Origin: Saccharothrix sp. ALI-22-I
Lineage (GTDB): Bacteria > Actinomycetota > Actinomycetes > Mycobacteriales > Pseudonocardiaceae
Assembly: GCF_001984175.1 (NCBI RefSeq)
Contig: NZ_MTQP01000047.1
Coordinates: 62,001-126,000, forward strand
DNA length: 64,000 bases
Reading direction: 5' to 3'
Shown here: positions 16,228 through 38,083 of the stretch, in pieces
How the letters are laid out: the number at the start of each line of letters is the position of its first letter
How positions within the stretch are numbered: position 1 is the first letter of the stretch
The notes under the pieces: model-generated
What the model was told of the DNA's origin: nothing
Database searches by the model: none
What the model saw: only the letters and a program-made list of their open reading frames with translations
Translations under genes and position numbers: made by a program

Positions 16228-17371
16228 TCCGGCGTCCCTCGCGGAGCTGGACGTCTCGTGGTCTGATCTGCTGCTTCAGAACACGGTTCCGACTGTCGCC
16301 GAGTACATGCCACGGGTCGTGGCGGCCGCGTCGGTCGGGCAGGTGCGCAAGTACGCGGTGCACTGGCGCCGGGCCGTGGCCGCCTTTGGCGAGCACCGGA
16401 TCGACGCAGTCACGGTGACCGACGTGCTGGCCTTGCAGCAACAGGCGACCCGAGAGGCGCAGGTGCGCTCGAACCACCGCAAGGGACGGCACGCGGGCGA
16501 GAGCGCGGTCCAGGCGATGCGGATGCTCTTCCGGCTGGCCGCCGCCGACGGTCTGCTCGGGCGCGGCGGCAATCCGGCCCTGGCGGTGACGTTGCCGCGT
16601 CGACTGCCCAACGTCCGTCGGGCGTTGACGCGCAAGGAGGTGCGCTTGATCAACGAGGTGGTGGTGGCCACCAGCCGGGACGCGGTGCTGGACGCGCTGT
16701 TGCTGCGGCTGCACACCGAGACCGCCTGCCGTCGATCTGGGGCACCGGGTCTGCGGCTGATGGACCTGGACACCGAATCGTGCGCGGTGCGGCTTCGCGA
16801 GAAGTTCGGCACGGAGCGCTGGCAGCCGGTCAGCCCGAGCCTGGCCGAGCACGCCGAGGCCCGCGGGGTGCGAGAGCCCGAGGAGCGGTTGCTGCGGCAC
16901 GCGGACGGCACACCGCTGTCCGGGCGCCGCTACGACCTGCTCTGGAAACGGGTGAAGAACCACCTGCTCTGGGCGGCGAAGCTCGGCGTGTCCATGCACT
17001 GGCTGCGGCACACCACCCTGACCTGGGTGGAACGCCGCTACGGCTACGCCGTCGCCCGAGCCTATGCGGGACACACCGACACCAAGGGCGGCTCCACCCT
17101 GACCTACATCAAGGGCATGCCCCAGGACGTGGCGCGAGCCTTGTCGGCGTACACCGGTGAACCCCATCCGCTGATGGGGCTGGCGGTAGTGGCCCGACTG
17201 CCGGCGGACGGCGGAGCGGGCGGGAGCCCTGGTGCTCGATCTGGAACCGAACGCCGAGTTGCGCATCGCGCTGATCAGCCGCCGCGGCCCGCTGTCCCCG
17301 GCGGCGATGGCCTTCCTGGACGGAGCGCTGACGGAACCGCGATAAGGCCGGCTTATAAGGCGGCCTTATAA
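16200..17371 (+). pseudogene. Tyrosine recombinase/integrase with early frameshift and altered C-terminus
   Basis: The ATG at 16200 gives MLDEDRIELIRR. The rest continues in another frame from about 16232 (LAELDVSWSDLLLQNTVPTV), so a one-base lesion separates start and body. An internal ATG exists at 16307. The body shows the tyrosine-recombinase set: Arg in ETACRRSGAPGL, HWLRHTT (HxxR), AYAGHTD (second His) and the nucleophile Tyr in GGSTLTYIKG. After PHPLMG, near 17175, the original end is lost and the frame runs antisense-like through a LysR remnant to 17371. The enzyme would mark the edge of an integrated element, but no att repeats are visible. Confidence 0.75.
17223..17345 (+). pseudogene. 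LysR regulator, last 40 residues
   Basis: This frame encodes GALVLDLEPNAELRIALISR, then RGPLSPAAMAFLDGALTEPR and a stop. It aligns with the C-terminus of the intact LysR gene at 37199-38083 (VLVIEPEATLDIALVSRRGS, LSPAAAAF). It sits at the same position relative to a tartrate dehydrogenase gene, so it is the residue of the regulator of this degraded cluster copy. The recombinase remnant replaces the remainder. Confidence 0.7.
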
Positions 17372-17373
17372 GG
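17352..17373. promoter_or_regulatory. Tandem CTTATAAGG palindromes upstream of the dehydrogenase
   Basis: CTTATAAGG at 17352-17360 and CCTTATAAGG at 17364-17373 are palindromes in an otherwise GC-rich gap between the LysR remnant and the dehydrogenase start. The intact cluster has a related CCTTATAACC at 37181-37190 in the same relative position. A LysR operator is the natural guess. Confidence 0.45.
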
Positions 17374-17428
17374 CACATCGGGATTGTGTCTTGGACGCGC
17401 TGCCCGGCCCGCTGCTGCAATCGACCGT

Positions 17429-18475
17429 ATGACGATCCAGAACCACCGCATCGCCCTCATCCCCGGTGACGGCATCGGGACCGAGGTCCTGCCGCCCGCC
17501 CGGCGGTCCTGGACACCGTCGGCCGCCGCCACGGAATCGGCTTCTCCTACACCTCCTACGACTGGTCCTGCGAGCGCTATGTGCGCGAGGGCTCGATGAT
17601 GCCCGAGGACGGCTTGGACCGGCTGCGCGAGGCGGACGCGATCCTGCTGGGCGCCGTCGGCTACCCGGGCGTGCCGGACCACGTCTCGCTGTGGGGGTTG
17701 CTGATCCCCATCCGCCAGTACGTCAACCTGCGGCCGATCCGGGTCTTCGAGGGCGTGGACAGCCCGCTGCGCAGCGCCGCCGCGGGCGAGGTCGATCTCG
17801 TCGTCGTGCGGGAGAACGTCGAGGGCGAGTACAGCGAGATCGGCGGACGGCTGAACCACGGCACGCGCGAGGAACTGGCCGTCCAGGAGGCGGTGTTCAC
17901 CCGGGCCTGGTCACCCGGATCGCCGACTACACGTTCTCGCTCGCCGCCCGCCGCCGAGGGAAGCTCACCTCCGCCACCAAGTCCAACGGCATCATCCACA
18001 CCATGCCGTTCTGGGACGAGCTGATCACCGAGCGGGCCGCCGCGCACCCCGGTGTCACCTGGGACCAGGAGCACATCGACGCGCTGGCCGCGAAGTTCGT
18101 CCTCGACCCGCCCGCTTCGACGTGGTCGTCGCCTCGAACCTCTTCGGCGACATCCTCAGCGATCTCGCGGCCGCGGTCGCCGGCTCCATCGGCATCGCCC
18201 CGGCGGCCAACCTCAACCCCGAGCGGGACTTCCCCTCGATGTTCGAGCCGGTGCACGGCTCCGCGCCCGACATCGCGGGCCAGGGCATCGCCAACCCACT
18301 GGGCGCGATCTGGTCCGCGGCCCTGATGCTGGACCACCTCGGCCACCCCGAGGCCGCCCAGGACATCACGGACGCGATCGCCTCGGTCCTGGCCAAGACC
18401 GATATCCGCACCCGTGACCTGGGCGGAACCGCGACCACCACCGAGTTCACCGACAAACTGATCGAGCTTCTCTGA
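17429..18475 (+). pseudogene. Tartrate/D-malate dehydrogenase, multiply frameshifted copy
   Basis: The ATG at 17429 opens MTIQNHRIALIPGDGIGTEV, the N-terminus of the isocitrate/isopropylmalate dehydrogenase superfamily (tartrate/D-malate branch). Compared with the intact copy at 36070-37125 there are several lesions. A G is lost in a GGG run near 17505, about four codons after IPIR are missing, a frame change falls near 17907, and one C is lost from CCCC near 18108. The enzyme would oxidatively decarboxylate a 2-hydroxy-dicarboxylate with NAD. The last 417 bases appear identical to the intact copy, unlike the 5' half. Confidence 0.85.
18059..18475 (+). repeat. Inverted repeat partner A (417 bp) shared with 36070-36487
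   Basis: Read base by base, this segment matches the reverse complement of 36070-36487 except for one missing C near 18108. Identity begins at CTGGGACCAGGAG and ends exactly at the TGA stop. The flanks diverge at once on both sides. Confidence 0.85.
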
Positions 18476-18664
18476 CCGTCCCGGCCCTTCGGAACCGCAG
18501 CCGAGTACACCGCCGTACCGGGATCTCGAGCCGGAACTCCGAGACAACGGACGGATGCGAGCTGTGGGCCCCTCAGGGCCCGGCTCCCGTCCAAACCACC
18601 TCGAATCGAACAGCCTCACGTCGAGGGCACAGCATGCGCACCGGCGATACGAAAGGAAAGTCCT

Positions 18665-19325
18665 GTGTCAGCTGAGAGGAAGCGCGTCGCCGTCGTCGGC
18701 GTCGGAACGATGGGCAGCCAGGCCGCCTGGCGGCTGGCGGCTGGCGGCGCGGGGCGCCGAGGTGGTCGGCTACGACCGGTTCGCCCCCGGCCACGACCGC
18801 AGTGCCGCCGGCGGCGAGACCCGGATCTTCCGCAGCGCGCACTTCGAGGACTCGCGGTACGTCCCGCTGCTCAAGCACGCCGACGTCCTGTGGGAGCAGC
18901 TCCAGCGGGAGACCGGCCATGAGCTGCGCCGTCTGACCGGGTGTCTGCTGATGGGGCGGACCGAGCACCACCAGATGGCCACCGTCCTGCAGTCCATCGC
19001 GGAGCACGACCTCGACCACGAGGTGCTGGACGCGGAGTCCCTGGCAAACGCTTCCCGCAGTACCGCATCGAGGACGGCGACGCGGCCGTGCTCGACCGCC
19101 GCGCCGGCTTCATCCGCCCGGAGTTGACGATCCAGACCGCCGCCCGCCGCGCCGAGCAGTTGGGCGCAGTGATCCACCGCTACTCCACGGTCCGCGAGAT
19201 CGTGCCCGTCGCGAACGGCGTCGAGATCCGCACCGACGCCGGCAGCGAACGCTTCGACACCGCCGTCGTCACCCCCGGCCCCTGGGTCAACGACCTGCTG
19301 CCCGACCTGCCGTGGGAAGTGGAAG
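18665..19325 (+). pseudogene. FAD-dependent amine oxidase (MSOX/SolA-like), broken copy
   Basis: GTG at 18665 opens MSAERKRVAVVGVGTMGSQA, an N-terminal Rossmann FAD motif. It parallels the intact gene at 34768-35904, with shared strings such as GYDRFAPGHDRSAAGGETRI and RRLTGCLLMG. A seven-base tandem duplication near 18745 breaks the frame in the first helix, and another shift near 19050 follows DAESLA. After DLPWEVEVRRD (about 19325) the rest is missing and an aspartase end takes over. Only the N-terminal half remains, without the FSGxGFK C-terminal flavin motif. Confidence 0.8.
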
Positions 19326-19475
19326 TCCGCCGCGACCGACATCGCCAAGGAGACCCTCGCCACCCGACGCGGAGTCGCCGAACCCTTCCTGGAGAAGGGC
19401 CTCTCGCCCGCCGACACCCTCGCCGAGCTGCTCCGTCCCGACGTCGTCGCGGGACCCGGTCAAGCCCTGGTGTGA
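19326..19475 (+). pseudogene. Aspartate ammonia-lyase/fumarase-type C-terminal fragment
   Basis: This frame gives ATDIAKETLATRRGVAEPFL, then EKGLSPADTLAELLRPDVV and a stop at 19475. The pattern matches the C-terminal small domain of class II fumarases and aspartases (IAKEA...GRGV.E.VLEKGLL...L..LL.P). It is directly joined to the broken oxidase, so a deletion removed the lyase body. A second fragment of the same family lies at 24815-24990 on the other strand. Confidence 0.6.
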
Positions 19476-19540: not shown

Positions 19541-20989
19541 ATGTCTCGACCTCTCCGTGCCCAGACGCGGCCCGTCCCCGAGGCCGCAGTGCTGGAAGGG
19601 CTGCCTCCAGTCCGCGAGGTGAGCGCCGCGGAAGTGGCCGCCCGCATATCCGGTGGCCCCCGTCTCGTCGTCCTCGACGACGATCCGACCGGCACCCAGA
19701 CGGTCGCCGACGTGCCCGTCCTGACTTCCTGGACGGTGGACGACCTGCGCTGGGCGCTGCGCCAGGACAGCGCCGTCTTCTTCGTCCTCACCAACACCCG
19801 CAGCCTGTCCCCTGAGGACGCCGCCGCCCGCAACCGCGAAGTGGTCCGCGCCCTGCACGCGGCGTCGGCGGCCGAGGGCACCGGTTACGTCCTGGCCAGC
19901 CGTGGGGACTCGACGCTGCGCGGCCACTTCCCGCTGGAGACCGATGTCCTCGCCGAAGAGCTGACCGAGATGGACGTCGGAGCTCCGGACGGAGTGGTAC
20001 TGGTCCCCGCCTACATCGAGGCGGGCCGGCTGACCGTCGGCTCCCGCCACTGGATGCGGACCGCCGACGGGCTGCTCCCGGTCGGCGAGAGCGAGTTCGC
20101 CCGCGACGCCACCTTCGGCTACCGCAGCTCCTCGCTGCCCGAGTGGGTCGAGGAGAAGACGGGCGGACGCGTGCCTGCGGACGAGGTCCTGCGCATCACC
20201 CTCGACGACCTGCGCACCGGCGGCCCCGCGCACACCGCGCGACTGCTGTCCTCACTGCGCGGCGGACGCACGGCCGTGGTCGACGCGGTGTGCGACGACG
20301 ATCTGCGGGTGCTCGCCCTGGCCCTCGCAGAGGCGGAGGAGAACGGCACGCGGCTGCTGTACCGGGTCGGGCCGTCCTTCGTCAGGGCCCGCGCCGGACA
20401 GGCGGCGCGGGCACCGCTCACCCCGGCGGAACTGCGCCCGCTGCGCGGGGACGCACCGCACGGTCTCATCGTCGTGGGGTCTCATGTCGCGCTGACGACA
20501 CTGCAGTTGGACCGGCTGCGGGAGCGAGGCGGGATCGCCGAGTACGAGCTGGACGTGGCCCTCCTGCTCGACGAGGAGCGGCGTGACGCCCACATCGCCG
20601 AAGTCGCGACTGCGGCCGCCGGCGCGCTGGACTCGGCCGACGCCGTGATCCGCACCTCTCGCGTGCTGGTGACGGGTGCCGACGCGGACGACAGTCTGGC
20701 GATCTCCCGCCGGGTCTCCGCCGCGCTCGTGGAGGCCGTGCGCCAGGTCAACGCCACCCGGCGGCCCGCTTTCGTCGTCGCAAAGGGCGGTATCACCTCC
20801 AGCGACACCGCCACCCATGGCCTTCAGATCCGCCGTGCCTGGGCCCGGGGCACGCTGCTCCCCGGCATCGTCTCACTCTGGGAGCCCGCGGACGGCCCCG
20901 CGGCCGGCATCCCCTACATCGTCTTCGCCGGGAACGTCGGGGGCACCGACGCGCTCGCCGACGCCCTCGACCTGCTGAGGAGTGCCTGA
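19541..20989 (+). CDS. Four-carbon acid sugar kinase family protein (DUF1537; OtnK/DtnK/DenK-like)
   Basis: A 482-residue intact protein with the two-domain DUF1537 architecture. The N-terminal substrate domain has LDDDPTGTQTVADVPV near residue 46 and RGDSTLRGHFPLE near 127. The C-terminal ATP domain has VAKGGITSSDTATHG near 412 and FAGNVGGTDALA near 465. Characterised members phosphorylate 3-oxo-tetronates, D-threonate, D-erythronate or related acids on a terminal hydroxyl. The TGA overlaps the ATG of the aldolase (TGATG), so kinase and aldolase are coupled. The product would be a phosphorylated oxo-acid sugar, cleaved next. The true substrate is not predictable from sequence alone. Confidence 0.9.
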   Translation: MSRPLRAQTRPVPEAAVLEGLPPVREVSAAEVAARISGGPRLVVLDDDPTGTQTVADVPVLTSWTVDDLRWALRQDSAVFFVLTNTRSLSPEDAAARNREVVRALHAASAAEGTGYVLASRGDSTLRGHFPLETDVLAEELTEMDVGAPDGVVLVPAYIEAGRLTVGSRHWMRTADGLLPVGESEFARDATFGYRSSSLPEWVEEKTGGRVPADEVLRITLDDLRTGGPAHTARLLSSLRGGRTAVVDAVCDDDLRVLALALAEAEENGTRLLYRVGPSFVRARAGQAARAPLTPAELRPLRGDAPHGLIVVGSHVALTTLQLDRLRERGGIAEYELDVALLLDEERRDAHIAEVATAAAGALDSADAVIRTSRVLVTGADADDSLAISRRVSAALVEAVRQVNATRRPAFVVAKGGITSSDTATHGLQIRRAWARGTLLPGIVSLWEPADGPAAGIPYIVFAGNVGGTDALADALDLLRSA

Positions 20990-21852
20990 TGCTGCTGCAC
21001 GGAACCGATGCTTTGAAGGAGGCCGCGGCCACCGGTCACGCCCTGCCCGGGTTCGTCGCCTACAACCTGGAGACGGTCCAGGGCATCACGGCCGCCGCCG
21101 AGGCCGCCGGACGGCCGGTCCTCATCCAGGCGGGCTCCAGCCCCTTCAAGCACGCCGGGCGCGACGCCCTGATGCGGCTGGCGCTGGACGCGGCCGGACA
21201 CTCCGCCGCCCGCCTCGGTGTGCACCTCGATCACAGCCGGGACCTGGACGAGATCATCGCCTGCCTGGAGGCGGGCTACACCTCCGTCATGGTCGATGGC
21301 TCCCATCTGCCGTTCGCCGAGAACATCGCATTGACGAAGGAGGCGGTCCGGCGGACTCGTGACCACGGTGCCTGGGTGGAGGCCGAGCTCGGTGCCCTGC
21401 CGGGCGACGAGGACGTCTCCACCGACGCCGTCGCGCAGGCCGCGGCGATGACCGATCCGCAGCAAGCGGCCGAGTTCGTGGCCGCGACGGGCGTGGACGC
21501 ACTCGCCGTCGCAGTCGGCAACGTCCACGGCTTCACCAAGCACCCGGTCCGCCTGGACCTGGAGCGGCTGGCCGCGATCCACGAGGCCGTACCGGTCCCG
21601 CTCGTCCTGCACGGCGCCAGCGGTCTGCCCGTCGAGGAGCTGCACGGCGCCCTCGCCCGAGGCGTCGCCAAGGTCAACGTCAACGCCGAACTGCGCCGCG
21701 CCTATCTGGAGGCCGTCCGCGTGACCATCCCGTCCGCGTTGCCCGGCTCCGACGCCGTCTCCCTGTGGGCGGCGGGCCGCGTCGCGGTCCGGGACGCCGC
21801 CTTGGACGTCATCGGTCGCCTGAGCCCCCGCGCCGAGGAGGGAAACCCGTGA
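20989..21852 (+). CDS. Class II (zinc) ketose-bisphosphate aldolase family protein
   Basis: A 287-residue TIM-barrel aldolase of the FbaA/KbaY/GatY family. Zinc and substrate motifs are visible: GVHLDHSRDLDEI (HLDH), SVMVDGSHLPFAENI, WVEAELGALPG, AVAVGNVHGFT and LVLHGASGLPVEEL. It overlaps the DUF1537 kinase start-stop. In known acid-sugar pathways the kinase is followed by a PdxA-type dehydrogenase or a class II (adducin-like) decarboxylase. A KbaY-type aldolase instead suggests retro-aldol cleavage of a phosphorylated keto-acid or ketose to dihydroxyacetone phosphate plus a small aldehyde. That step is inference. Confidence 0.9.
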   Translation: MLLHGTDALKEAAATGHALPGFVAYNLETVQGITAAAEAAGRPVLIQAGSSPFKHAGRDALMRLALDAAGHSAARLGVHLDHSRDLDEIIACLEAGYTSVMVDGSHLPFAENIALTKEAVRRTRDHGAWVEAELGALPGDEDVSTDAVAQAAAMTDPQQAAEFVAATGVDALAVAVGNVHGFTKHPVRLDLERLAAIHEAVPVPLVLHGASGLPVEELHGALARGVAKVNVNAELRRAYLEAVRVTIPSALPGSDAVSLWAAGRVAVRDAALDVIGRLSPRAEEGNP

Positions 21853-22016
21853 CCTGAGCTCAGCCCCGCTGAACCCGAGCCGCACCACACCGGCGGAACA
21901 CAAGACCGTCGTACGCCCCCGGCCGTGCGCGTTGCGCGCGGTTCGCACCGCTCTGTCTCGCGCTCTCGTGCCCTCCTCGGCACGCGGGGCCTATACCGCA
22001 TCCTGTTGGAGCCACC

Positions 22017-22727
22017 ATGTCCACCACTGCCTCGATCGCCGTGTTGCACACCAGCCTGCTGTTCGTCACCGTCGATCCGGTCATCAACGACTGCCTCGCG
22101 GAACTCGCGCCCGACGCCAAGGTCCTGCACTTCGTCGACAGCGACGTGCTCGCAGCCGTGATGCGCGACGGTGGGATCTCGCCTGCCAGCACGCAGCGCA
22201 TGGTGCACCTGGCCCAGGCCGCGGAGTCCGCGGGGGCCGACGTCATCTTCTCCGCCTGCTCCTCGGTCGGTCCGGCCATCGACGTGGCCCGACGCCTGGT
22301 CTCCGTCCCGATCGTCAAGATCGACGACGCGATGACCGCGTCAGCGGTCGAAACCGCGGACGCCGTCGGCGTCCTGGCGACGGTCCCCACGACGCTGCCG
22401 CCGACCCGTGCCCTCGTCGAGGAGAAGGCCCGGGCGGCCGGTCGCGACATCACCGTCCAGGAGCGGCTGTGCGAGGGCGCCTTCTCGGTGCTGATGTCCG
22501 GTGACCGCGACCGCCACGACGCGATGGTGCTGGACGGGGCGCGGGCGCTGGCCACCGAGGTCGACGCGATCGTGCTGGCCCAAGCATCCATGGCACGGCT
22601 GGCTCCCGCGATCGCCGAAGCCGTCGGCAAGCCCGTGCTCTCCAGCCCTCGCAGCGGAGCGGAGAACGCGGTACGTGTGCTGCACGAGCAGACGGCTGAA
22701 CCTGTCCATGCCACAGAGAGTGCCTAG
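22017..22727 (+). CDS. Asp/Glu/hydantoin racemase-family protein
   Basis: A 236-residue protein starting MSTTASIAVLHTSLLFVTVD. The family fold is visible from the first catalytic-type loop VIFSACSSVGPAIDVARR and the second DAIVLAQASMARLAPAI. Racemases of this family use two cysteines. The first is present (SACSS), but the second loop reads AQAS, with no cysteine. It may therefore act as an isomerase, decarboxylase or lyase rather than a two-base racemase. It follows the kinase-aldolase pair after a 164-bp gap with no clear terminator, so co-expression is likely. Confidence 0.8.
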   Translation: MSTTASIAVLHTSLLFVTVDPVINDCLAELAPDAKVLHFVDSDVLAAVMRDGGISPASTQRMVHLAQAAESAGADVIFSACSSVGPAIDVARRLVSVPIVKIDDAMTASAVETADAVGVLATVPTTLPPTRALVEEKARAAGRDITVQERLCEGAFSVLMSGDRDRHDAMVLDGARALATEVDAIVLAQASMARLAPAIAEAVGKPVLSSPRSGAENAVRVLHEQTAEPVHATESA

Positions 22728-22737
22728 GCGGACCGCA

Positions 22738-23030
22738 GGACCGAGGAGATCTTCGGTCCGGTGGCTCCCGTCATCCCGTTCGGCAGGGAGGAGGAAGCCG
22801 TCCGCATGGCCAACGACACCCCGTGGGGTCTCGCGGGCTACCTGTTCACTCAGGACGTGGACCACGGCTTCCGTGTGGGCGAGGCCCTCGAAGTCGGCAT
22901 GGTCGGCCTGAACACGGCATCGTGTCCAACCCAGCCGCGCCGTTTGGCGGGGTCAAGGCCTCGGGTCTGGGCCGTGATGGCGGCCGCGTGGCATCGACGA
23001 GTTCCTCGAGTACAAGTACATGGCGGTCCG
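22738..23030 (+). pseudogene. Aldehyde dehydrogenase, C-terminal fragment
   Basis: Fragments in successive frames read EEIFGPVAPVIPFGREEEAV, RMANDTPWGLAGYLFTQDVD, then [19 protein letters not shown] and [12 protein letters not shown]. These are the last 100 residues of a GabD-like aldehyde dehydrogenase, similar to the intact gene at 26630-28081. At least two frame changes lie near 22918 and 22985. The catalytic Cys region is absent. It starts straight after the racemase stop. Confidence 0.75.
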
Positions 23031-23131
23031 CTCCGGGCATAATCCGCCGGCTGCGGCCGAGATGGCCAGAGCCCTGATCCCTCAGGGCCTGAGCGGGGCA
23101 TTTGGCGCTGCTCAGGCCCTGAGTTCGGGGC

Positions 23132-23251
23132 ATCCTCGACGAGCAGGCGGTCGACCGTTTCGACCCGCCCCGGGCGTTCAGCACGTTTCCCGACCTCGCC
23201 GTCGGAGCCGCAGCGGTGCTCACCACCAAGAAGCACGTCGTCAACCACTGA
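23132..23251 (+). pseudogene. Unassigned 3' gene fragment
   Basis: A 39-residue tail reads [20 protein letters not shown], then [19 protein letters not shown] and a natural-looking stop, with good actinobacterial codon bias. It has no start and is preceded by the aldehyde dehydrogenase debris. I do not recognise the family. It is probably the end of another gene of the original cluster. Confidence 0.35.
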
Positions 23252-23286
23252 CCGTGGCCGTCCCCGGCCGGAACACAGGAGCCAGC

Positions 23287-24809: not shown

Positions 24810-24814
24810 GCTTT

Positions 24815-28081: not shown

Positions 28082-28122
28082 CGTGGATATCTCCTTGTAT
28101 GTGCAGAGGGGCTGCCGACCGG

Positions 28123-29504: not shown

Positions 29505-29768
29505 TCAGCGGCGCGGAACGGTTGTGGACGCGGCGAGGAGGCCGGCCTGGCGCAGTCGACGCGCGATCAGGTCGACGAGTCGGCGCGGGATACAGCCCGA
29601 CAGACCGGCGATGTAACGCCTGCCGTCGGTGTCCTCCACGTACGGGCCCTCTCCTCGCCGGACGACGAGGAGGTCCTCGCCCTCGGGGCCGAGCGAGCCG
29701 TTGGCGGTCATGTGCGGCAGCAGGTGCCGCTGAGCGGTGGCGACGTTGAGCTGAGCGGTGGCGGTTAC
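29505..29768 (-). pseudogene. Class III aminotransferase, N-terminal fragment with destroyed start
   Basis: The frame from 29768 reads TATAQLNVATAQRHLLPHMT, then EGEDLLVVRRGEGPYVEDTD and GRRYIAGLSG. This is the N-terminus of omega-amino-acid class III aminotransferases. Similarity ends at GLSG and unrelated sequence follows to 29505. The first codon is GTA, overlapping the permease stop as GTAA. A GTGA overlap would have given both a stop and a GTG start, so a G-to-A change at this spot would remove the start but keep the permease stop. Confidence 0.65.
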
Positions 29769-30631: not shown

Positions 30632-31512
30632 GACGCGCTCCTTTTCTTCGCGCTGGCGCCGAGGGAGCTGATGAGCTTGACCAGCAGCAGTCCGGCGAGG
30701 GTGAGCAGCAGCAGGAGGACCCCCTGAGCGGCCGCCCCGTTCCACTGGTTTTCTTTCGTCACCTGCTGGTTGATGAGGGTGGCGATCATTGTCTGGTTGG
30801 GTCCGCCCATCAGGGCCGGGGTGATGTAGTAGCCCAGCGACAGGATGAAGCTGAGCAGTCCGGCACTGGCCAGTCCGGGGGCGACCAGCGGCAGGTAGAC
30901 CCGACGGAAGATCGTCACCCGTCCCGCGCCCATGCTGGCCGCGGCCGCGAGCAGTCCGCGGTCCACGCCGCGCATCACGCCGTACAGCAGCAGCACGGTG
31001 TAGGGCAGCATCATGGAGGTGGTACCGATGACCACGCCCAGCTCGTTGTAGAGCAGGTGGTACGGCGCCCCCGGTGCCCAGGCCAGGGTCTCGTTCACCA
31101 GGCCCTTGTCGCCGAGCAGGATGATCCATCCGTAGGTGCGCACCAGGGCACTGATGAAGTGCGGGACGACGACGATCAGCATGGCCAGTCCGGCCCACAG
31201 GGGCCTGAGCCGTGAGATCGCGTTCGCCAGAATGAACCCGAAGACCAGGCTCAACAGCGCCGTCTCGGCGGAGATCCGCAGCGTGGTGATCAAAACGGAG
31301 AGGTTGACGCCCGTCAGCGCGTCGACGTACCAGTGCAGCGTCAGCGACCCGTCGGCGTTCTTCAGACTGAGGAACAGCGTGCTGATGATCGGGTAGACGA
31401 ACAGCACCAGCAGGTAGACGACGACCGGCAGCGCGTAGAGGATCCCGACCCTGGTCTTGCGCGAGGCCAGGAGCTTGCGCGGACGGGCGGGGGCGGCGGT
31501 GAGAGCGGCCAT
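30628..31512 (-). CDS. Polyamine-type ABC permease, PotB-like
   Basis: A 294-residue permease, MAALTAAPARPRKLLASRKT, with six transmembrane helices. The EAA loop is AAAASMGAGRVTIFRRVYLP and the conserved SFILSLGYYITPALMGGPNQ is shared with PotB/PotH. It starts 4 bp after the ATPase gene and its stop overlaps the next permease, so the order is receptor, ATPase, PotB, PotC in one transcript. The substrate is inferred only from family: spermidine/putrescine or similar cationic amines. Confidence 0.9.
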   Translation of the reverse strand: MAALTAAPARPRKLLASRKTRVGILYALPVVVYLLVLFVYPIISTLFLSLKNADGSLTLHWYVDALTGVNLSVLITTLRISAETALLSLVFGFILANAISRLRPLWAGLAMLIVVVPHFISALVRTYGWIILLGDKGLVNETLAWAPGAPYHLLYNELGVVIGTTSMMLPYTVLLLYGVMRGVDRGLLAAAASMGAGRVTIFRRVYLPLVAPGLASAGLLSFILSLGYYITPALMGGPNQTMIATLINQQVTKENQWNGAAAQGVLLLLLTLAGLLLVKLISSLGASAKKRSAS

Positions 31513-31515
31513 GGC

Positions 31516-32655
31516 TCACCCTTCCTGTTCGCCGGCGAAGAGGTTGACGTCGTCCGGGTCGGCGGTGATCCCGACCCGCTCGCCGGCGACGGGGCCTCGG
31601 CCGGCCGGTACTTCCAGGCGCAGCAGCGGCGCGTCACCGCCATCGATCCGCACGCCGGCGCGGACCAGGGTGCCCACGTAGGTGGCGGTCTCCACCGTGC
31701 CGCTGCAGAAGCCGTCGTCGATGGCGCAGGCCCGCAGTCGGCCCGGCTGGACGGCGACCTTGACCGGGGTGCCGGAGGCCAGGTCGTGGCGGCGTGCCTT
31801 CAGCAGTCCGCCACTGCGGTCGAGGCGGACCAGGGTGTGCTCGTCGGTGTGCTGCTCGATGCGGCCGGGCAGGAAGTTGGCCGCGCCGAGGAAGTCCGCG
31901 ACGAAGGGGGTCTTCGGCCGCTCGAACAGCTCCCGGGGGGTGTCGAACTGCTCGACCAGGCCGTTGCGCATCACCGCGATGCGATCCGACATGACCAGCG
32001 CTTCTTCCTGATCGTGCGTCACGTAGATGACGGTCAGGCCGAGCTCCTGCTGGATGGTCTTGATCTCGACCTGTAGCTGGTCGCGCAGTTTCTTGTCCAG
32101 GGCGCCGAGCGGCTCGTCCATGAGGATGACCGGCGGGCGGTAGACCAGTGCCCGGCACAGCGCCACCCGCTGCTGCTGACCGCCGGACAGCTCGCGAGGC
32201 TTGCGGCCGCCGAAGCCGGACAGGCCGGCGATCTCCAGCGTCTCCCCGACGCGCCTGCGGATCTCGTCCTTCGGCACGCCGCGCAGCGTGAGCGGGAAGG
32301 CGACGTTGTCGTGCACGGTCATGTGCGGGAACAGCAGGTACTGCTGGAAGACGAAACCGAGGTTCCGCTTCTGCGGGGCGAGCCTGGTGACGTCGCGGCC
32401 TCCGACGGTGATGGTGCCGGAGTCGGGTTCGCAGAACCCGGCGATCATCATCAGGGTCGTGGTCTTGCCCGACCCGGAGGAGCCGAGGAAGGTGACGAAC
32501 TCCCCGGCCGCGATCTCCATGGACGCCTCGTCGACGGCGACGATGTCCCCGTACGTCTTGCGCAATGCCACTACCGACAGCGCCTTGCCGGTCGCGGTGG
32601 CGGGCTTGCCGCCGACCACCGCGACGGACGGCGTGATCACACCGAATTCAGCCAC
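31516..32655 (-). CDS. Polyamine-type ABC importer ATPase, PotA-like
   Basis: A 379-residue ATPase starting MAEFGVITPSVAVVGGKPAT. Walker A LGSSGSGKTTTLMMIAGF, Q-loop FVFQQYLLFPHMTVHDNVAF, signature ELSGGQQQRVALCRAL, Walker B VILMDEPLGALDKKLRDQLQ and the switch VTHDQEEALVMSDRIAV are all intact. The C-terminal 110 residues form a TOBE regulatory domain. The start overlaps the end of the receptor gene by eight bases. The ATPase energises the two permeases downstream. Confidence 0.92.
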   Translation of the reverse strand: MAEFGVITPSVAVVGGKPATATGKALSVVALRKTYGDIVAVDEASMEIAAGEFVTFLGSSGSGKTTTLMMIAGFCEPDSGTITVGGRDVTRLAPQKRNLGFVFQQYLLFPHMTVHDNVAFPLTLRGVPKDEIRRRVGETLEIAGLSGFGGRKPRELSGGQQQRVALCRALVYRPPVILMDEPLGALDKKLRDQLQVEIKTIQQELGLTVIYVTHDQEEALVMSDRIAVMRNGLVEQFDTPRELFERPKTPFVADFLGAANFLPGRIEQHTDEHTLVRLDRSGGLLKARRHDLASGTPVKVAVQPGRLRACAIDDGFCSGTVETATYVGTLVRAGVRIDGGDAPLLRLEVPAGRGPVAGERVGITADPDDVNLFAGEQEG

Positions 32656-33748
32656 GAGCCCACTCCAACCAGCGCTGGGTGACGGCGGCTTCGTTCTTCA
32701 GCCACCAGTCGATGTCGGTGTCGAAGCCCTTGTCGTAGTACTGCGGCGCACCCGCCAGTGCGTTGCGCTCGTCCTCGGTGAGCTTCTCGTAGGCCACCGG
32801 GGAAGACGGGTTCGACGGGAAGGCCTTTGCCAGGTTGGCCTGGACCTCGGCACGCAACGAGAAGTCCATGAGCTGGTAGGCGGCGTCCACGTTGGCCGCG
32901 TCCTTGGCGATGGCGTAGCCCGAGAACTGACGGCGAATACCGTTGAGCTGCCTGGCGACCGGGACGCCCTGCTTCTGCAGATCGGCGATCCGGCCGTCCC
33001 AGACGGTGGACATCGTCACCTCCTGGCGGCTCAGCAGCACACCCGGGAGCGGGCCGCTGTCCCAGAACTTCTTGATCTCGGACCGCAGCCGGGTCAGCAC
33101 CTTGAAGGCACGGTCCACATCCAGCGGGTACAGCTTGTCCATCGGGACACCGTCGGCCAGCAGCGCGAACTCCAGCTCCGGCAGGTCACCGTCCGGACTG
33201 CACATCGCACGGCCGCCCTGGAACGCCTTGGTGTCCCAGAAGTCCGCCCACGACTCGGGCTTGCGGCCGCCGAAGGCGTCGGTGCGGTACGCGATGCACT
33301 GGCCGTAGAAGCTGTGGCCGATGGCATGGTCGGTGATCTGGTTGTCGGGGATCTTCGCGCTCTTCAGGCTCGTGATCCGGTCGCGGTCCAGCTTCTCCAG
33401 GGCGTCCTGGCCCGCGTACTTGGCGTGGGACATCATCGAGTCGTTGATGAGGTCGCACTGCGGGCGGCCCTGCTTGATCTGGGCGAGCAGCGGGGCGTTG
33501 TCCAGGTTGAGCACCTTGACGCTGATGCCGGTCTCCTGGGTGAACGGCGTGTAGATCGCCTTCTGCAGGGCCGCACCGTAGGAACCGCCGCTGTCGCGGA
33601 CGACCACCGTCTTGCCACCCCCGCCGCTGGACGAGACACGGCTGGTGCCGGTGCCGCAGGCGCCGAGGGCGGTCGCGGCGGCTACACCCGCCGCGACCCC
33701 TCCGATTCCTCGCAGGAACAGTCTGCGGTCAATTCGGGCGTCTTTCAT
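32648..33748 (-). CDS. Polyamine-type ABC importer substrate-binding lipoprotein, PotD-like
   Basis: A 366-residue exported receptor. The N-terminus MKDARIDRRLFLRGIGGVAA has a twin-arginine motif (RRLFLRG) and a lipobox LGAC near residue 30, so it is probably folded, exported by Tat and lipid-anchored. The mature part begins with a Ser/Gly linker and contains VVRDSGGSYGAALQKAIYTP and GHSFYGQCIAYRTDAFGGRK, as in PotD/DUF1537-associated receptors. ATG is preceded by AGGAGGCACACG. It is the first gene of the transport operon. Confidence 0.9.
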   Translation of the reverse strand: MKDARIDRRLFLRGIGGVAAGVAAATALGACGTGTSRVSSSGGGGKTVVVRDSGGSYGAALQKAIYTPFTQETGISVKVLNLDNAPLLAQIKQGRPQCDLINDSMMSHAKYAGQDALEKLDRDRITSLKSAKIPDNQITDHAIGHSFYGQCIAYRTDAFGGRKPESWADFWDTKAFQGGRAMCSPDGDLPELEFALLADGVPMDKLYPLDVDRAFKVLTRLRSEIKKFWDSGPLPGVLLSRQEVTMSTVWDGRIADLQKQGVPVARQLNGIRRQFSGYAIAKDAANVDAAYQLMDFSLRAEVQANLAKAFPSNPSSPVAYEKLTEDERNALAGAPQYYDKGFDTDIDWWLKNEAAVTQRWLEWARG

Positions 33749-33973
33749 CGTGTGCCTCCTGGTGGTGCCGGCCGCGAGATGAGGGGAGCGGCTGGGGACG
33801 TGGGAAGAGGGGCAGTGGGAGCTGGGCCGCGTGCTCGCGGCGGTCGGCCGAGTCGACGATGCGGCCGATGACTTCGCCCTCGGCCCGGTACTTCGAGTTC
33901 TGCGCGGGCGTCGCCGACAGCTCGGCGTGGAGGTCCTTCGGGGCTGTCCGTGCGGGACGGTGTGCGTCGCGGG

Positions 33974-34654
33974 TCAGATGCCGAGCATGCGGTTGAGCTC
34001 GTCCAGGGACTTCACCGTCACGTAGTCGTAGCCGTGGGTGACCGGGTCGCAGCCGCGGTCCAGGAGGACGAGGTTGCGGAAGCCCATGTCGTGCATCGGC
34101 ATCAGGTCGTAGCGGGTGTGCGAGGAGACGTGCACGAAGTCCTCGGGGGACGCGTCGAGCTGGTCGAGCATGTACTCGAACGCGGCGTAGCGGGGCTTGT
34201 AGTAGCCGGCCTGCTCCGCGGTGTAGACCGCGTGGAAGTCCGCTCCGAGCCGGGGCACACTCTCCTCGAGGAAGGCGTCCTCGGCGTTGGAGAGGATCAC
34301 CAGCTTGTAGTTCTCGCCCATCTTCTTCAGCGGTTCCGGCACGTCGGCGTGCGGGCCCCAGCTGCGGACGCCGTCGGCGAACCGCTTGCCCGCGTCCGGG
34401 GCGGCCTTCACGCCCCACTTGCGGCAGACCCCCTCGAAGGCGTCCTGCAGCGTCTGCTCGTAGGGGTAGTACTTGCCGAGGACCGAGTCGTAGCGGTAGC
34501 CGCGGAACTCCTTGACGAACTGGTCCCAGTGCTCGGCCGGGATCTGGTCGCCGACGAGTTCACGCGTGATGGGGGTCATCGGCCACTCGATCAACGTGCC
34601 GTAGCAGTCGAACGAGACGTACTTGGGGCGGAACTGGAACGAGGGAATGGGCAT
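33974..34654 (-). CDS. HAD-superfamily hydrolase, L-2-haloacid dehalogenase type (HAD type II)
   Basis: A 226-residue HAD protein. ATG at 34654 (MPIPSFQFRPKYVSFDCYGT) is preferred, with GGAG nine bases upstream. Motif I FDCYGTLIEW supplies the nucleophilic Asp. Motif II is LVILSNAEDAF. The Lys is in YYKPRYAAFEYML, and HVSSHTRYDLMPMHDMGFRN is motif III. In true L-2-haloacid dehalogenases a Ser-Asn follows (VSSN); here it is VSSH, so dehalogenation cannot be assumed. It lies between the importer operon and the FAD oxidase, as similar HAD genes do in amine-catabolism clusters. The 225 bases between it and the receptor gene hold no clear gene. Confidence 0.85.
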   Translation of the reverse strand: MPIPSFQFRPKYVSFDCYGTLIEWPMTPITRELVGDQIPAEHWDQFVKEFRGYRYDSVLGKYYPYEQTLQDAFEGVCRKWGVKAAPDAGKRFADGVRSWGPHADVPEPLKKMGENYKLVILSNAEDAFLEESVPRLGADFHAVYTAEQAGYYKPRYAAFEYMLDQLDASPEDFVHVSSHTRYDLMPMHDMGFRNLVLLDRGCDPVTHGYDYVTVKSLDELNRMLGI

Positions 34655-34767
34655 GGTGGTACTCCATTTCTTGCTTCGGGGGGACTGATTGCGGCCGGGT
34701 GCCGGTTTTTCGGGCATGCCTGTGGCAGGGATGCCGAGGTGAGGTGATGCCGTGGATGTCGCCGGGG

Positions 34768-35904
34768 TCAGACGGCGCGGACTCCTGCCGGAGCGAGGAA
34801 GTCGATGGGGTGATCAGTGCTGCCGTCGAGTGCCAGGTCGGCGGCGATCTCTCCCATCGCGGGCGAGAGCTTGAAGCCGCTGCCGGAGAATCCGGCCATG
34901 ACGATGATGTCGTCCTCGCCGGGGAGATGACCGACGAGCGGGTTTCCGGACTCCGTGTAGCCCTCCATGTAGGCCGACATCCTGATGGGGTCGGGGTTCA
35001 GGTCGGGCATGAGTTCACGGATGAGCTCGTGGAACGTGCCGAGTTCTTCGGGGCGGACCGTCCGGTCGAGCCGTTCCGGATCGGGCACCGGCAGATGGCG
35101 TGCGAAGGAGAGACCGAGCTTGACGGAGATGCCGTCGGGCGACGGGAGCCCGAAGCAGTCGTGGGGTGTGCTGCGCACGAAGGGAGGGGCTCCGCCCGTG
35201 AACCAGTCGTGGCGGGTGGGCAGGTGCCAGGAGCAGATCACCCTGCGGACGTCGACGGTCCGTGGGAGGTCCGGGAGCAGTGTGTTGATCCAAGGGCCCA
35301 CGGTCACCACGGCGGCGTCCACGTGGTCCGTGCCGTGGTCGGTGACGATCTGCACGCCGCCTCCCGCCGCGGGGACGACCTCCCGCACCGGGGTGTAGCG
35401 GTGCAGCCGGGCGCCCAGCTGTTCGGCGCGGGTGGCGGCCGCCTGGACCGACGCCTCGGGCCTGATGACGGCTCCCATCCGGTCGAGTACGGCGGTGTGT
35501 CCGTCCGGGAGACGGTGCTGCGGGTAGCGACGGGCGAGGGCGTCCCGGTCCAGTACCTCGTGATCCAGGCTATGGGCGGCGCTGGTGGAGAGGAGGAGAC
35601 GCATGGCCGGTGAGGCGGCCTCTCCCATCACGAGGCTGCCGCTGCGGCGTCGCAGCGACCGGCCCGTCTCCGCCTGGAGTTGCTCCCACAGCGCGTCCGC
35701 GAGCCGCAGCAGCGGAATGTACCCGGGCTCGCCGAGGTGGGCGGCTCGGAAGATGCGGCTCTCGCCCCCAGCCGCGCCGCGGTCGTGACCCGGCGCGTAC
35801 CGGTCGTAGCCGATGACCTCGGCTCCGCGGGCGGCCAGTCGCCACATGGCCTGGCTGCCCATGCTGCCGGCACCGATCACGGCGACGCGCTTCCGGATGC
35901 TCAT
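34768..35904 (-). CDS. FAD-dependent amine oxidase (MSOX/SolA-like), intact copy
   Basis: A 378-residue oxidase. ATG at 35904 (MSIRKRVAVIGAGSMGSQAM) is chosen because it aligns with the start of the broken copy at 18665; an upstream ATG at 35955 is possible. FAD motif GAGSMGSQAMWRLAARGAEV, loop GYDRYAPGHDRGAAGGESRI and C-terminal VMAGFSGSGFKLSPAMGEIA are present. The flavinylation Cys region of MSOX is here SAYMEGYTESGNPLVGH, with no Cys. It would oxidise a secondary amine or amino acid. It sits 165 bp downstream of the dehydrogenase gene at 36070, in the same gene order as the broken pair at 17.4-19.3 kb. Confidence 0.88.
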   Translation of the reverse strand: MSIRKRVAVIGAGSMGSQAMWRLAARGAEVIGYDRYAPGHDRGAAGGESRIFRAAHLGEPGYIPLLRLADALWEQLQAETGRSLRRRSGSLVMGEAASPAMRLLLSTSAAHSLDHEVLDRDALARRYPQHRLPDGHTAVLDRMGAVIRPEASVQAAATRAEQLGARLHRYTPVREVVPAAGGGVQIVTDHGTDHVDAAVVTVGPWINTLLPDLPRTVDVRRVICSWHLPTRHDWFTGGAPPFVRSTPHDCFGLPSPDGISVKLGLSFARHLPVPDPERLDRTVRPEELGTFHELIRELMPDLNPDPIRMSAYMEGYTESGNPLVGHLPGEDDIIVMAGFSGSGFKLSPAMGEIAADLALDGSTDHPIDFLAPAGVRAV

Positions 35905-36069
35905 GAGGTCGCTCTTTTCGATGGTGTGGTCTGGGTGGTGGTTGGGCTCCAGCACGGTGGGGATACCGTGCGAACCCTTCCGGTCCCGTTGGGGATGGCG
36001 TTCACTTTCGGCCCGGGAACCTGCAGGTCAACCCCCGCTGTATTCCACCTTGAGGCAGGGGGAGATGGC

Positions 36070-36487
36070 TCAGAGAAGCTCGATCAGTTTGTCGGTGAAC
36101 TCGGTGGTGGTCGCGGTTCCGCCCAGGTCACGGGTGCGGATATCGGTCTTGGCCAGGACCGAGGCGATCGCGTCCGTGATGTCCTGGGCGGCCTCGGGGT
36201 GGCCGAGGTGGTCCAGCATCAGGGCCGCGGACCAGATCGCGCCCAGTGGGTTGGCGATGCCCTGGCCCGCGATGTCGGGCGCGGAGCCGTGCACCGGCTC
36301 GAACATCGAGGGGAAGTCCCGCTCGGGGTTGAGGTTGGCCGCCGGGGCGATGCCGATGGAGCCGGCGACCGCGGCCGCGAGATCGCTGAGGATGTCGCCG
36401 AAGAGGTTCGAGGCGACGACCACGTCGAAGCGGGCGGGGTCGAGGACGAACTTCGCGGCCAGCGCGTCGATGTGCTCCTGGTCCCAG
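36070..36487 (-). repeat. Inverted repeat partner B (418 bp) shared with 18059-18475
   Basis: This is the 3' part of the intact dehydrogenase, identical by eye to 18059-18475 in reverse orientation apart from one extra C (CCCC versus CCC). The two lie about 17.6 kb apart in opposite orientation, so homologous recombination between them would invert the whole island interior. Confidence 0.85.
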
Positions 36488-37125
36488 TCGACCTGCGGGA
36501 ACGAGGCGGCACGCTCGGTGACGAGCTGGTCCCAGAACGGCATGGTGTGGATGATGCCGTTCGACTTGGTCGCGGAGGTCAGGCGGCCGCCCCGCTGGGA
36601 GGCGAGCGTGAAGGCGTAGTCCAGCACGCGTGTGACGCCGGCCCGGGTGAACACGGCCTCCTGCACGGCGATCTCGTCCGGGAAGCCCCTGTTGAGCCGG
36701 CCGCCGACCTCGCCGTACTCGCCTTCCACGTTCTCGCGCACGACGACGAAATCGACCTCGCCCGGCCGTGCGCCGCGCACCGGACTGTCGATGCCTTCGA
36801 AGACGCGGATGGGCCGGAGGTTGACGTACTGGCGGAAGCTGCGCCGGATCGGGATCAGCAGCCCCCACAGCGAAACATGGTCGGGCACCCCCGGGTATCC
36901 CACCGCGCCCAGCAGGATCGCGTCCGCCTCGCGCAGCTGGTCGATCCCGTCGGCGGGCATCATGGCGCCCTCCCGCAGGTACCGCTCGCACGACCAGTCG
37001 TACGACGTGAAGGACAGGCTGAAGCCGTGGCGGCGGCTCAGAACATCGAGGACCTGCTGTGCCGGGGGCAGTACCTCGGTGCCGATGCCGTCGCCTGGGA
37101 TCAGGGCGATGCGGTGGTTCGTCAT
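36070..37125 (-). CDS. Tartrate/D-malate dehydrogenase (TtuC/DmlA-type), intact copy
   Basis: A 351-residue beta-decarboxylating dehydrogenase. MTNHRIALIPGDGIGTEVLP at 37125 is preferred over upstream ATGs at 37152 and 37170 because the broken copy starts at the same point; no clear ribosome site is seen. Motifs are [86 protein letters not shown] and [20 protein letters not shown]. The family oxidises D-malate, tartrate or related 2-hydroxy acids with NAD and Mn/Mg. LysR lies 73 bp upstream on the same strand. Its last 418 bases match the broken copy. Confidence 0.9.
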   Translation of the reverse strand: MTNHRIALIPGDGIGTEVLPPAQQVLDVLSRRHGFSLSFTSYDWSCERYLREGAMMPADGIDQLREADAILLGAVGYPGVPDHVSLWGLLIPIRRSFRQYVNLRPIRVFEGIDSPVRGARPGEVDFVVVRENVEGEYGEVGGRLNRGFPDEIAVQEAVFTRAGVTRVLDYAFTLASQRGGRLTSATKSNGIIHTMPFWDQLVTERAASFPQVDWDQEHIDALAAKFVLDPARFDVVVASNLFGDILSDLAAAVAGSIGIAPAANLNPERDFPSMFEPVHGSAPDIAGQGIANPLGAIWSAALMLDHLGHPEAAQDITDAIASVLAKTDIRTRDLGGTATTTEFTDKLIELL

Positions 37126-37198
37126 GCCGACGATTGCAGCAAGGCGGTCCATGAGGCGTCCAAGACGCAAAGCGGATCACCCTTATAACCGGTGCCTA

Positions 37199-38083
37199 TC
37201 AGCTGTCGGCGGCCGAGGTTGCGGCTGTGACGAACGCGGCGGCCGCGGGCGACAGGCTGCCGCGGCGGCTGACGAGGGCGATGTCCAAGGTGGCCTCCGG
37301 CTCGATGACCAGGACACGGGCGCCCAGTCGCCGGACGACGTCCCGCCACGCATCCGTGACCACCGCGAGCCCGACCCCGGCCAGGACCAGGGGCATGAGC
37401 GACACGCGGTGCTCGGTCTCGGCGGCGATGGTGAACTCGATGCCCTGGTCCCGCAGCGCGTCGACGTAGGCGCGCATCCCGGTACCCGACTGTCCGACGA
37501 TCAGCCGCTGTCCCGCAAGCTCCCGGCACTCCACCTCCGTCCGATCGGCGAACGGGCCCTCGGCCGGCACCGCCAGCACAAAACGCTGCCGCCCCAGCGC
37601 ATGTGAGGCCACCTCCTTGTCGGAGACCGGACCGGCGGACGCCAGAAGCCCCAACTCCACGGCACCCGTGCGCACCATGTCGATCACATCACGCGAGGTG
37701 AACGCCGCCTTGATGACCACCGAGACGCCGGGATACCGGTGGCTGAAGGCACTCACCAAGGTCGTCAGCGGCTCCACCGCCTGCGACGGCATGGATGCCA
37801 CATCGAGGCGCCCATCACGCAGCTCATGCACCGCCGCGACACTCGCCCGCGCCGTCTCCAGACTCCGCACGGCCTCCCGGGCGGGCTCGATCAGGGCCCT
37901 TCCGGCCTCCGTCAGCACTGCCCTACGCCCGATGCGATGGAACAGTTCGGAGCCGAGGTCACGCTCCAGTGCCCGCACGGCCTGCGACAGCGACGGCTGC
38001 GACACGTACAGGGCCGAGGACGCACGGTTGAACCCCCCACGATCAACAATCGCAAGGAAGTACTCCAGCTGCCGAATGTCCAT
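37199..38083 (-). CDS. LysR-family transcriptional regulator
   Basis: A 294-residue LysR protein starting MDIRQLEYFLAIVDRGGFNR, with the helix-turn-helix ASSALYVSQPSLSQAVRALE at residues 20-40 and a periplasmic-binding-like effector domain after about residue 90. It precedes the dehydrogenase in the same orientation. The gap holds CCTTATAACC (37181-37190), related to the paired CTTATAAGG sites of the degraded copy. It most likely activates the dehydrogenase-oxidase pair in response to a substrate such as a hydroxy-dicarboxylate. The last 40 residues have a decayed homologue at 17223-17345. Confidence 0.9.
   Translation of the reverse strand: MDIRQLEYFLAIVDRGGFNRASSALYVSQPSLSQAVRALERDLGSELFHRIGRRAVLTEAGRALIEPAREAVRSLETARASVAAVHELRDGRLDVASMPSQAVEPLTTLVSAFSHRYPGVSVVIKAAFTSRDVIDMVRTGAVELGLLASAGPVSDKEVASHALGRQRFVLAVPAEGPFADRTEVECRELAGQRLIVGQSGTGMRAYVDALRDQGIEFTIAAETEHRVSLMPLVLAGVGLAVVTDAWRDVVRRLGARVLVIEPEATLDIALVSRRGSLSPAAAAFVTAATSAADS

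Follow-up and report, generated by a model that had tools for sequence, protein, structure and literature searches.

We analysed a 64,000-nucleotide stretch of the genome of Saccharothrix sp. ALI-22-I (10.3 Mb in 69 contigs), positions 62001-126000 of contig C44, which is referred to below as the window. The window carries a catabolic island of two arms, a left arm on the plus strand starting at 17190 and a right arm on the minus strand at 24456-38083 (Table 1). We tentatively propose that the right arm oxidatively breaks down an N-substituted C4 amino acid to D-malate and then to pyruvate. The gene families, their conserved order, the adjoining genes, the exchange of importers and the receptor residues described here are established, while the substrates, reactions and stereochemistry of the pathway are those that we infer from the sequence. 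The original prediction, made from this DNA alone, had listed the parts of both arms, all of which are present, and had proposed uptake and oxidative deamination, a semialdehyde dehydrogenase and turnover of a hydroxy acid by the dehydrogenase; these points are supported, and D-malate fits as the hydroxy acid. Its statement that no described pathway with exactly this set is known also stands, as our literature searches found no publication with this gene set. The island is real, but its arms should no longer be described as one degraded and one intact copy, nor its transporter as an importer of cationic amines.

Domains were called with Pfam profiles and with NCBIfam profiles and their curated cut-offs, combined with a sequence search of the PDB and tblastn between the arms. 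Genomes, contigs and loci carry G-, C- and L-numbers, respectively; C44, C67 and C2 belong to the window's own genome (G000), and the near relative Saccharothrix deserti (G005) served as the main sister comparison for the island.

Proposed pathway

In the proposed scheme, the compound imported would be of the N-substituted C4 amino-acid type and bear a carboxylate, and the flavin amine oxidases would cut its C-N bonds. A D-2-hydroxy-4-amino acid may then arise as the HAD hydrolase opens or substitutes, with inversion, an L-2-amino-type carbon. An aminotransferase (broken in the window, but open as GabT or class III types in relatives and in C67-type clusters) would convert this product to malate semialdehyde, which the succinate-semialdehyde-dehydrogenase (SSADH)-type enzyme would oxidize to D-malate and the tartrate/D-malate dehydrogenase (TDH) would decarboxylate to pyruvate. 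In fuller versions of the cluster, aspartase and a second aldehyde dehydrogenase could convert released aspartate semialdehyde or aspartate to fumarate. The LysR-type regulator probably senses the substrate or D-malate.

Table 1. Features of the island and its left edge, by position in the window.
Feature	Position	Strand	Evidence
Tyrosine recombinase/integrase open reading frame (ORF)	16307-17371	+	PF00589 7.5e-9
LysR remnant	17190-17333	+	tblastn 1.9e-8
TDH' pseudogene, pieces in several frames	17384-18475	+	match to right-arm TDH
SMOX' pseudogene, clade of C67-cluster oxidase	18653-19333	+	clade via S. deserti and L036 copies
Aspartase tail joined to cut-off SMOX'	19326-19466	+	74% to residues 422-468 of own-genome C2 AspA
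Four-carbon acid-sugar kinase (DUF1537 family)	19541-20989	+	PF07005 and PF17042
Class II (fructose-bisphosphate-type) aldolase	20989-21852	+	PF01116 4.6e-80
Asp/Glu racemase-family protein	22017-22727	+	PF01177 1.2e-22
Aldehyde dehydrogenase tail (broken)	22746-23037	+	tblastn 5e-25
OtnI-like 2-oxo-tetronate isomerase	23287-24102	+	NF043033 391 bits, cut-off 325
EutQ-like cupin	~24456-24809	-	PF05899 4.1e-26
Aspartate ammonia-lyase (aspartase) remnant (broken)	24726-24968	-	homologous pieces
SMOX2, second sarcosine-oxidase-like oxidase	25199-26344	-	NF008425 261.8 bits, cut-off 257
D-2-hydroxyacid dehydrogenase remnant (broken)	26420-26628	-	pieces of 327-aa Streptomyces gene
Succinate-semialdehyde-type aldehyde dehydrogenase (SSADH)	~26630-28081	-	PF00171 2.9e-162
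PuuB/AmaA-like FAD oxidase	~28123-29403	-	PF01266 2.5e-65
Class III aminotransferase remnant (broken)	29473-29741	-	start and end pieces of C67 aminotransferase
ABC permease 2	29765-30628	-	PF00528 in C-terminal part of ORF 29765-31519
ABC permease 1	30628-31512	-	PF00528
ABC ATPase (PotA/PhnT-like)	31516-32655	-	PF00005 and PF08402
ABC solute-binding protein, GABA/opine clade	32648-33748	-	PF13416; relatives of 4i1d, MotA, Pf622, Atu4243
Type II HAD hydrolase	33974-34717, conserved start ~34654	-	TIGR01428 136.9 bits, cut-off 125.4
SMOX1, sarcosine-oxidase/N-methyl-tryptophan-oxidase-like flavin oxidase	34768-35955	-	NF008425 279 bits, cut-off 257; alignment to MSOX
TDH, tartrate/D-malate dehydrogenase (decarboxylating)	36070-37170	-	TIGR02089 531.5 bits, cut-off 470.4; PDB 3flk 1.6e-123
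LysR-type regulator	37199-38083	-	PF00126 and PF03466

The core gene order is conserved and probably laterally shared

The best 80 of 444 TDH loci were analysed, so the counts that follow are not a census. In 70 of the 80 loci, a LysR match on the strand of TDH lay no more than 1.4 kb upstream of it. In 29 loci, including L036, L038 and L040 with oxidases of the SMOX' kind, TDH was followed on its strand by an oxidase sharing 55% identity or more with SMOX1, and the complete TDH-SMOX1-HAD order was found in 25 (23 Streptomyces, one Lentzea and S. deserti). Conservation of the gene order elsewhere, a neighbourhood check named beforehand in the original prediction, was thus borne out. Among the 35 loci whose TDH was at least 84% identical, SMOX1 was present in 26 and HAD in 25. 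The importer following HAD in the 25 loci with the complete order varied: it was PotD-type in ten, SBP_bac_3 in nine and absent from the DNA examined in five, and in L022 a PotD-type receptor was located upstream. Overall, importers of three receptor families (SBP_bac_8, SBP_bac_3 and SBP_bac_5) accompany related enzyme sets.

SMOX1 itself is rare, occurring in 3 of 25 genomes of the genus (E 1e-100) and in 6 of 394 genomes of the class, representing 2 of 138 genera (E 1e-120), with the window genome included in each count. This rarity, together with Streptomyces as the chief carrier, points to lateral gain of the right arm as a laterally shared module.

Twelve right-arm genes compared with S. 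deserti were free of internal stops in the window, with amino-acid identities of 94.7-99.7%. The right arm had been described as intact apart from the aminotransferase. That break is real, and its internal gap is also present in S. deserti, but the D-2-hydroxyacid dehydrogenase and the aspartase are remnants as well; the full-length 327-aa form of the former (PF02826 4.2e-54) sits after the aldehyde dehydrogenase in several Streptomyces. The SSADH-type enzyme scored 581.6 bits against TIGR01780, under the cut-off of 646, and the PuuB-like oxidase fell under every NCBIfam cut-off, its best model being AmaA (195.6 of 600 bits). SMOX2 is 32% identical to SMOX1 and 56% identical to an oxidase in G540. 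The cupin occurs in a 117-aa form in L018 and L029.

A fuller relative is found in the same genome on C67 (990-1024 kb), where PucR, SSADH, IclR, SMOX, an AstE-like protein and an importer are accompanied by an aminotransferase, an aldehyde dehydrogenase, an aldo-keto reductase, a second HAD gene (HAD2) and PuuB. Clusters of this type in G005, G018 and G042 add GabT or AspA, and another PuuB-AspA pair is located on C2. The ectoine (Eut/Doe) route was considered because the C67-type clusters contain AstE-like proteins, a class III aminotransferase, an aldehyde dehydrogenase and, in the sisters, aspartase. It was set aside since no M24-type ectoine hydrolase, the marker of that route, was present among the window proteins scanned or in the scanned part of C67.

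The receptor is predicted to bind an anionic ligand

The closest solved relatives of the solute-binding protein were 4i1d, 3rpw and the mannopine, gamma-aminobutyrate (GABA) and agropine receptors (4e-44 to 6e-26 among the matches listed), whereas E. coli PotD reached only 1.2e-11 in the same search. In the GABA sensor, D228 hydrogen-bonds the amino group of GABA (PMC12999171, in part). At the corresponding position, all 14 actinomycete receptors aligned have Ser or Asn (Ser in the window), while all 14 retain, by gap-free mapping, an Arg aligned with R205 of the sensor, which we infer to bind the carboxylate. The window receptor also has an Arg-Arg a few residues ahead of the Asp228 position. 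The kept Arg, the lost Asp and the nearby Arg-Arg together favour a predicted ligand that is anionic and carboxylate-rich. An importer for cationic amines, as first suggested, is not supported by these data, and a polyamine importer was rejected on the basis of the receptor relatives (GABA/opine rather than PotD/PotF) and the missing amine-binding Asp.

For this reason among others, we consider it quite unlikely that the right arm serves a polyamine (putrescine-like) or GABA pathway built from a PotABCD-type importer, the PuuB-like oxidase and succinate-semialdehyde dehydrogenase. Such a pathway would suit the GABA clade of the receptor, the leaning of the permease and ATPase profiles towards PotA/PotB/PotC-like and PhnT2-like models (all under cut-off), and the presence in the 29 oxidase-bearing loci of an opposite-strand PucR-type regulator between TDH and the oxidase (15 loci) and of GabT (7 loci). 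It leaves HAD, TDH and aspartase unexplained, however, as well as the exchange of the importer type, and no PuuA-type glutamine synthetase is present on C44 or C67, the four PF00120 matches of the genome being on C32, C48, C56 and C61. The known Puu, or gamma-glutamylation, route (E. coli; GlnA2/GlnA3 in Streptomyces) is similar in its PuuB-like oxidase, its aldehyde dehydrogenase and, for some versions of the cluster, GabT and PucR, but the island differs in having no PuuA nearby, a receptor of the GABA/opine clade, and HAD and TDH genes.

D-malate as the likely node

Within the TDH superfamily, Acinetobacter MDH converts D-malate to pyruvate, and E. coli DmlA accepts D-malate, L-tartrate and isocitrate (PMC11353897, in part). 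Among the 80 TDH loci, those without the oxidase include five with an SDF-family symporter directly after TDH, and a DASS-type family is located within 1.1 kb of TDH or just before it in seven, only some of which have LysR (one SDF and one DASS member were tested with Pfam). Given the TDH family and these adjoining dicarboxylate symporters, D-malate is a likely node of the pathway. The LysR, malic-semialdehyde dehydrogenase and D-malate dehydrogenase module proven for carnitine breakdown in Acinetobacter (PMC11353897, in part) counts in the same direction.

The same module, along with the APH-family kinase and class III pyridoxal-phosphate (PLP) enzyme of related loci, would also fit a carnitine-like pathway, in which 4-amino-3-hydroxybutyrate (GABOB), possibly N-methylated, is oxidized at C4-N to malic semialdehyde and further to D-malate and pyruvate, with flavin oxidases replacing CntAB. 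We regard this as similarly improbable to a polyamine route, because it gives HAD no role and leaves the aspartase unexplained. The two systems share LysR, a semialdehyde dehydrogenase and a beta-decarboxylating D-malate dehydrogenase behind a C-N-cleaving step (PMC11353897, in part), but the island has flavin amine oxidases, HAD and an ABC importer, and no Rieske oxygenase (CntA) domain was found among the right-arm proteins scanned. Amines can reach D-malate by two routes, one through carnitine-type cleavage and the other, by inference, through inversion of an L-2-substituted acid by a type II HAD.

The flavin oxidases and the HAD hydrolase

Both SMOX1 and SMOX2 exceed the N-methyl-tryptophan oxidase cut-off, as would be expected for catabolism of an N-methyl amino acid of the sarcosine type. 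Aligned to MSOX, SMOX1 keeps the Arg pair and the equivalents of Lys265 and Lys348, presumably the carboxylate-binding (Arg/Lys) and oxygen-activating (Lys) residues, but lacks those of Cys315 (presumably the site of covalent FAD), Tyr317 and His269. With HAD, TDH and aspartase also left unexplained, sarcosine-type catabolism is very unlikely. Opine and N-methyl routes were both rejected for leaving TDH and HAD without a role.

The best PDB matches of HAD were 8hp5-8hp7, labelled (S)-2-haloacid dehalogenase. The second group was L-azetidine-2-carboxylate hydrolase (3smv/8ywo/9v14, 5.9e-21), which is its closest relative among solved structures of stated function, and weaker matches included epoxysuccinate hydrolase (6e-11) and the L-DEX structure 1jud (5e-7). 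HAD shares with the azetidine hydrolase the nucleophile motif FDCYGTLI and the SN and KP motifs. Inversion by HAD would make the resulting 2-hydroxy-4-aminobutyrate the D-form and would thereby lead to D-malate. Hydrolysis of azetidine-2-carboxylate gives 2-hydroxy-4-aminobutyrate, which is then transaminated (PMC8016842, in part). Azetidine-2-carboxylate assimilation in a soil Pseudomonas and through Aspergillus AzhA resembles the proposed scheme in passing from a HAD-type ring hydrolase to a GABA-like transamination (PMC8016842, in part); the island differs in its additional pair of amine oxidases, TDH and aspartase, and in an active-site motif that is only partly shared. That HAD is instead a cis-epoxysuccinate hydrolase (CESH) and TDH oxidizes tartrate is extremely improbable: CESH appears in the sequence and fold lists of HAD and the TDH family bears the tartrate name, but CESH matches at 6e-11 against 6e-21 for the azetidine hydrolase, the position of CESH His190 (three residues before Asp193) is Thr in HAD by manual mapping, and the oxidases and aminotransferase would be unexplained.

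Several observations weigh against a pathway to D-malate as proposed. The fourth motif of HAD reads HVSSHTRYD, compared with HTAESLYHD in the azetidine hydrolase; as several residues differ, the substrate may be a relative of azetidine-2-carboxylate. The structure model of HAD is weak (pLDDT 62), with dehalogenases, epoxysuccinate hydrolases and the azetidine hydrolase tied in the fold list, and that of the receptor (pLDDT 33) is too poor to place the R205- and D228-equivalent side chains. The inversion proposed for HAD is that of L-DEX chemistry, on which the stereochemical argument depends. The TIGR02089 model suits tartrate as well as D-malate. Apart from the limited sampling of TDH loci, 9 of the 35 close ones had no SMOX1 in the DNA examined, at least one of them (L023) through a contig end, and the C67-type clusters had no TDH in the stretches read. 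Finally, the window copy has no intact aminotransferase, and its rescue in trans by C67 is assumed.

Clusters with Opp-type importers and metal efflux

Varying subsets of HAD, SolA-type and PuuB-like oxidases, aldehyde dehydrogenases and an aminotransferase were found in other actinomycetes (G072, G384, G586, G540 and G582) and on plasmid pROB01, together with SBP_bac_5 (Opp-type) or SBP_bac_3-type receptors. The association of TDH with these enzymes is also seen in distant actinomycetes. In G072 and G384, TDH adjoins the SolA-type oxidase; the HAD, TDH and SolA ORFs abut in G586, as do those of the aminotransferase, SSADH and TDH in G540, although ORF starts in related genomes such as these were set mechanically and exact overlaps may differ. 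None of these four genomes has a TDH match above 50% identity other than that in the cluster. HAD was found in 6 of 248 genomes of their taxonomic order (E 1e-50), the five named and G493, and in G582 and G493 it has no adjoining TDH. The Rhodococcus opacus B4 plasmid pROB01 (290-311 kb), whose record names no pathway, resembles the island in SolA (42%), HAD (46%), the PuuB-like oxidase (48%) and SSADH (55%), and its class III aminotransferase is 38% identical to that of C67. It differs in its SBP_bac_5 (Opp-type) receptor, an AspA (70% to the own-genome AspA) and a CDF metal efflux gene, and no TDH is annotated in the 290-311 kb stretch.

Each of the four clusters that have an Opp-type importer next to HAD (G072, G384, G586 and pROB01) also had CDF cation-efflux genes, but none of the 80 TDH loci or 15 other long regions did. 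The PotD-type and SBP_bac_3-type regions read, including the sister region of S. deserti, had no CDF gene, and neither had regions with a more distant SBP_bac_5-like ORF (C67 and one in G372). The CDF queries came from three of the four positive regions, so only G586 is independent. G072, G384 and G586 together have 12 CDF matches in 14.2 Mb, five of which are within 126 kb around the clusters, compared with about 0.1 expected; in G582, a neighbouring TDH-CDF pair is on a different contig from its HAD cluster. This enrichment suggests that the Opp-type versions may bring in a metal-loaded ligand. The link to metal efflux is not a property of the window's own cluster.

A more specific reading, which we consider unlikely, is that the cluster represents bacterial catabolism of metallophores of the nicotianamine/mugineic-acid type, plant metal chelators in which C4 aminobutyrate units are arranged around an azetidine ring. 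SolA and PuuB would cut the 3-amino-3-carboxypropyl arms to aspartate semialdehyde, freeing azetidine-2-carboxylate, and the aspartate semialdehyde would pass through aspartate to fumarate via AspA. HAD would open the azetidine ring with inversion, and the aminotransferase, SSADH-type enzyme and TDH would carry the product to D-malate and pyruvate. In the Opp-type variants, the metal would enter as the complex and leave again through the CDF pumps of the cluster itself. Phytosiderophores are degraded in soil, and a 2021 paper, in the part considered here, went no further than proposing candidate genes (PMC7786132).

In L166 (G000:C46:1-16000), L162 and L165, HAD genes are located near a class III PLP enzyme that is phospho-lyase-like by inspection, in L166 and L162 also near an APH-family kinase; these loci may represent an amino-alcohol branch of this family of pathways. 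In L160-L162 (G072:C1:1118001-1172000), four type II HAD genes lie within 34 kb, beside different gene sets.

The left arm derives from a different cluster

The two arms are alike in DNA (86% over 1128 bp and 71% over 660 bp) and have the LysR-TDH-oxidase order in common, so their likeness is not due to chance. The original prediction of a degraded and an intact cluster with shared gene order was right about the order, but the two arms are not a decayed and an intact version of one cluster, since SMOX' belongs to another oxidase clade. The main pieces of SMOX' in the window are 90-96% identical to the L036 oxidase and 61-63% to SMOX1, and the SMOX' of S. deserti and L036 is 83-89% identical to the oxidases of C67-type clusters and 61-63% to SMOX1. 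Nor is the left arm wreckage throughout: LysR, TDH', the oxidase and the aldehyde dehydrogenase are broken, but the four acid-sugar genes at 19541-24102 have no internal stops. The DUF1537 kinase among them scores far under both NCBIfam kinase cut-offs. As judged from these comparisons, what remains in the left arm belonged to another cluster of like kind, distinct from that of the right arm, and is now linked to an acid-sugar (tetronate) operon. Neither the window genome nor S. deserti has an intact TDH'; in S. deserti, SMOX' reads through and the aldolase is split over two frames, while in the window the reverse is true, so the two sister genomes are losing different left-arm genes.

The last 369 bp of TDH' (18107-18475) and TDH (36070-36438) are identical in inverted orientation, with an adjoining stretch 80% alike, while the ends of the two TDH copies in S. 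deserti are not identical. The left tract of the window matches the right copy of S. deserti at 359 of 369 positions and the left copy at 337 of 367. As the tract is closer to the right copy, the right TDH most likely overwrote the left TDH' by gene conversion after the species split.

Edges of the island and other observations

The tyrosine-recombinase ORF spans approximately position 17175, where synteny with S. deserti stops. Positions 9824-17175 of the window, which include most of this ORF, match no DNA in the part of S. deserti examined, where approximately 8.8 kb of other sequence lies between the corresponding flanks. At the right edge, positions 38200-38650 are frame-broken and by eye resemble an IS630-type transposase; the ORF at 38196-38804 has no Pfam match.

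Elsewhere in the window, a 642-bp stretch (12177-12818) containing a Cu/Zn superoxide-dismutase-like ORF (12157-12747) is repeated inverted 50 kb away at 63046-63685 with 98% identity, possibly a recent duplication. A beta-lactamase-family ORF (PF13354, 47193-48089) adjoins a second ORF (48086-48961). At 60364-62989, the ORFs at 61243 (SnoaL-like) and 62563 are of one family, with DNA repeats of 75-78% around them.

Significance

If the island does lead to D-malate, it would represent a modular pathway found across the actinomycetes, its one enzyme core being served by importers from three or more receptor families. The destruction of plant chelators has been observed in soil, and genes assigned to it were not found in the literature searched. 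Should the metallophore reading be true, these clusters would provide a gene handle on the destruction of plant iron and zinc chelators by soil bacteria.

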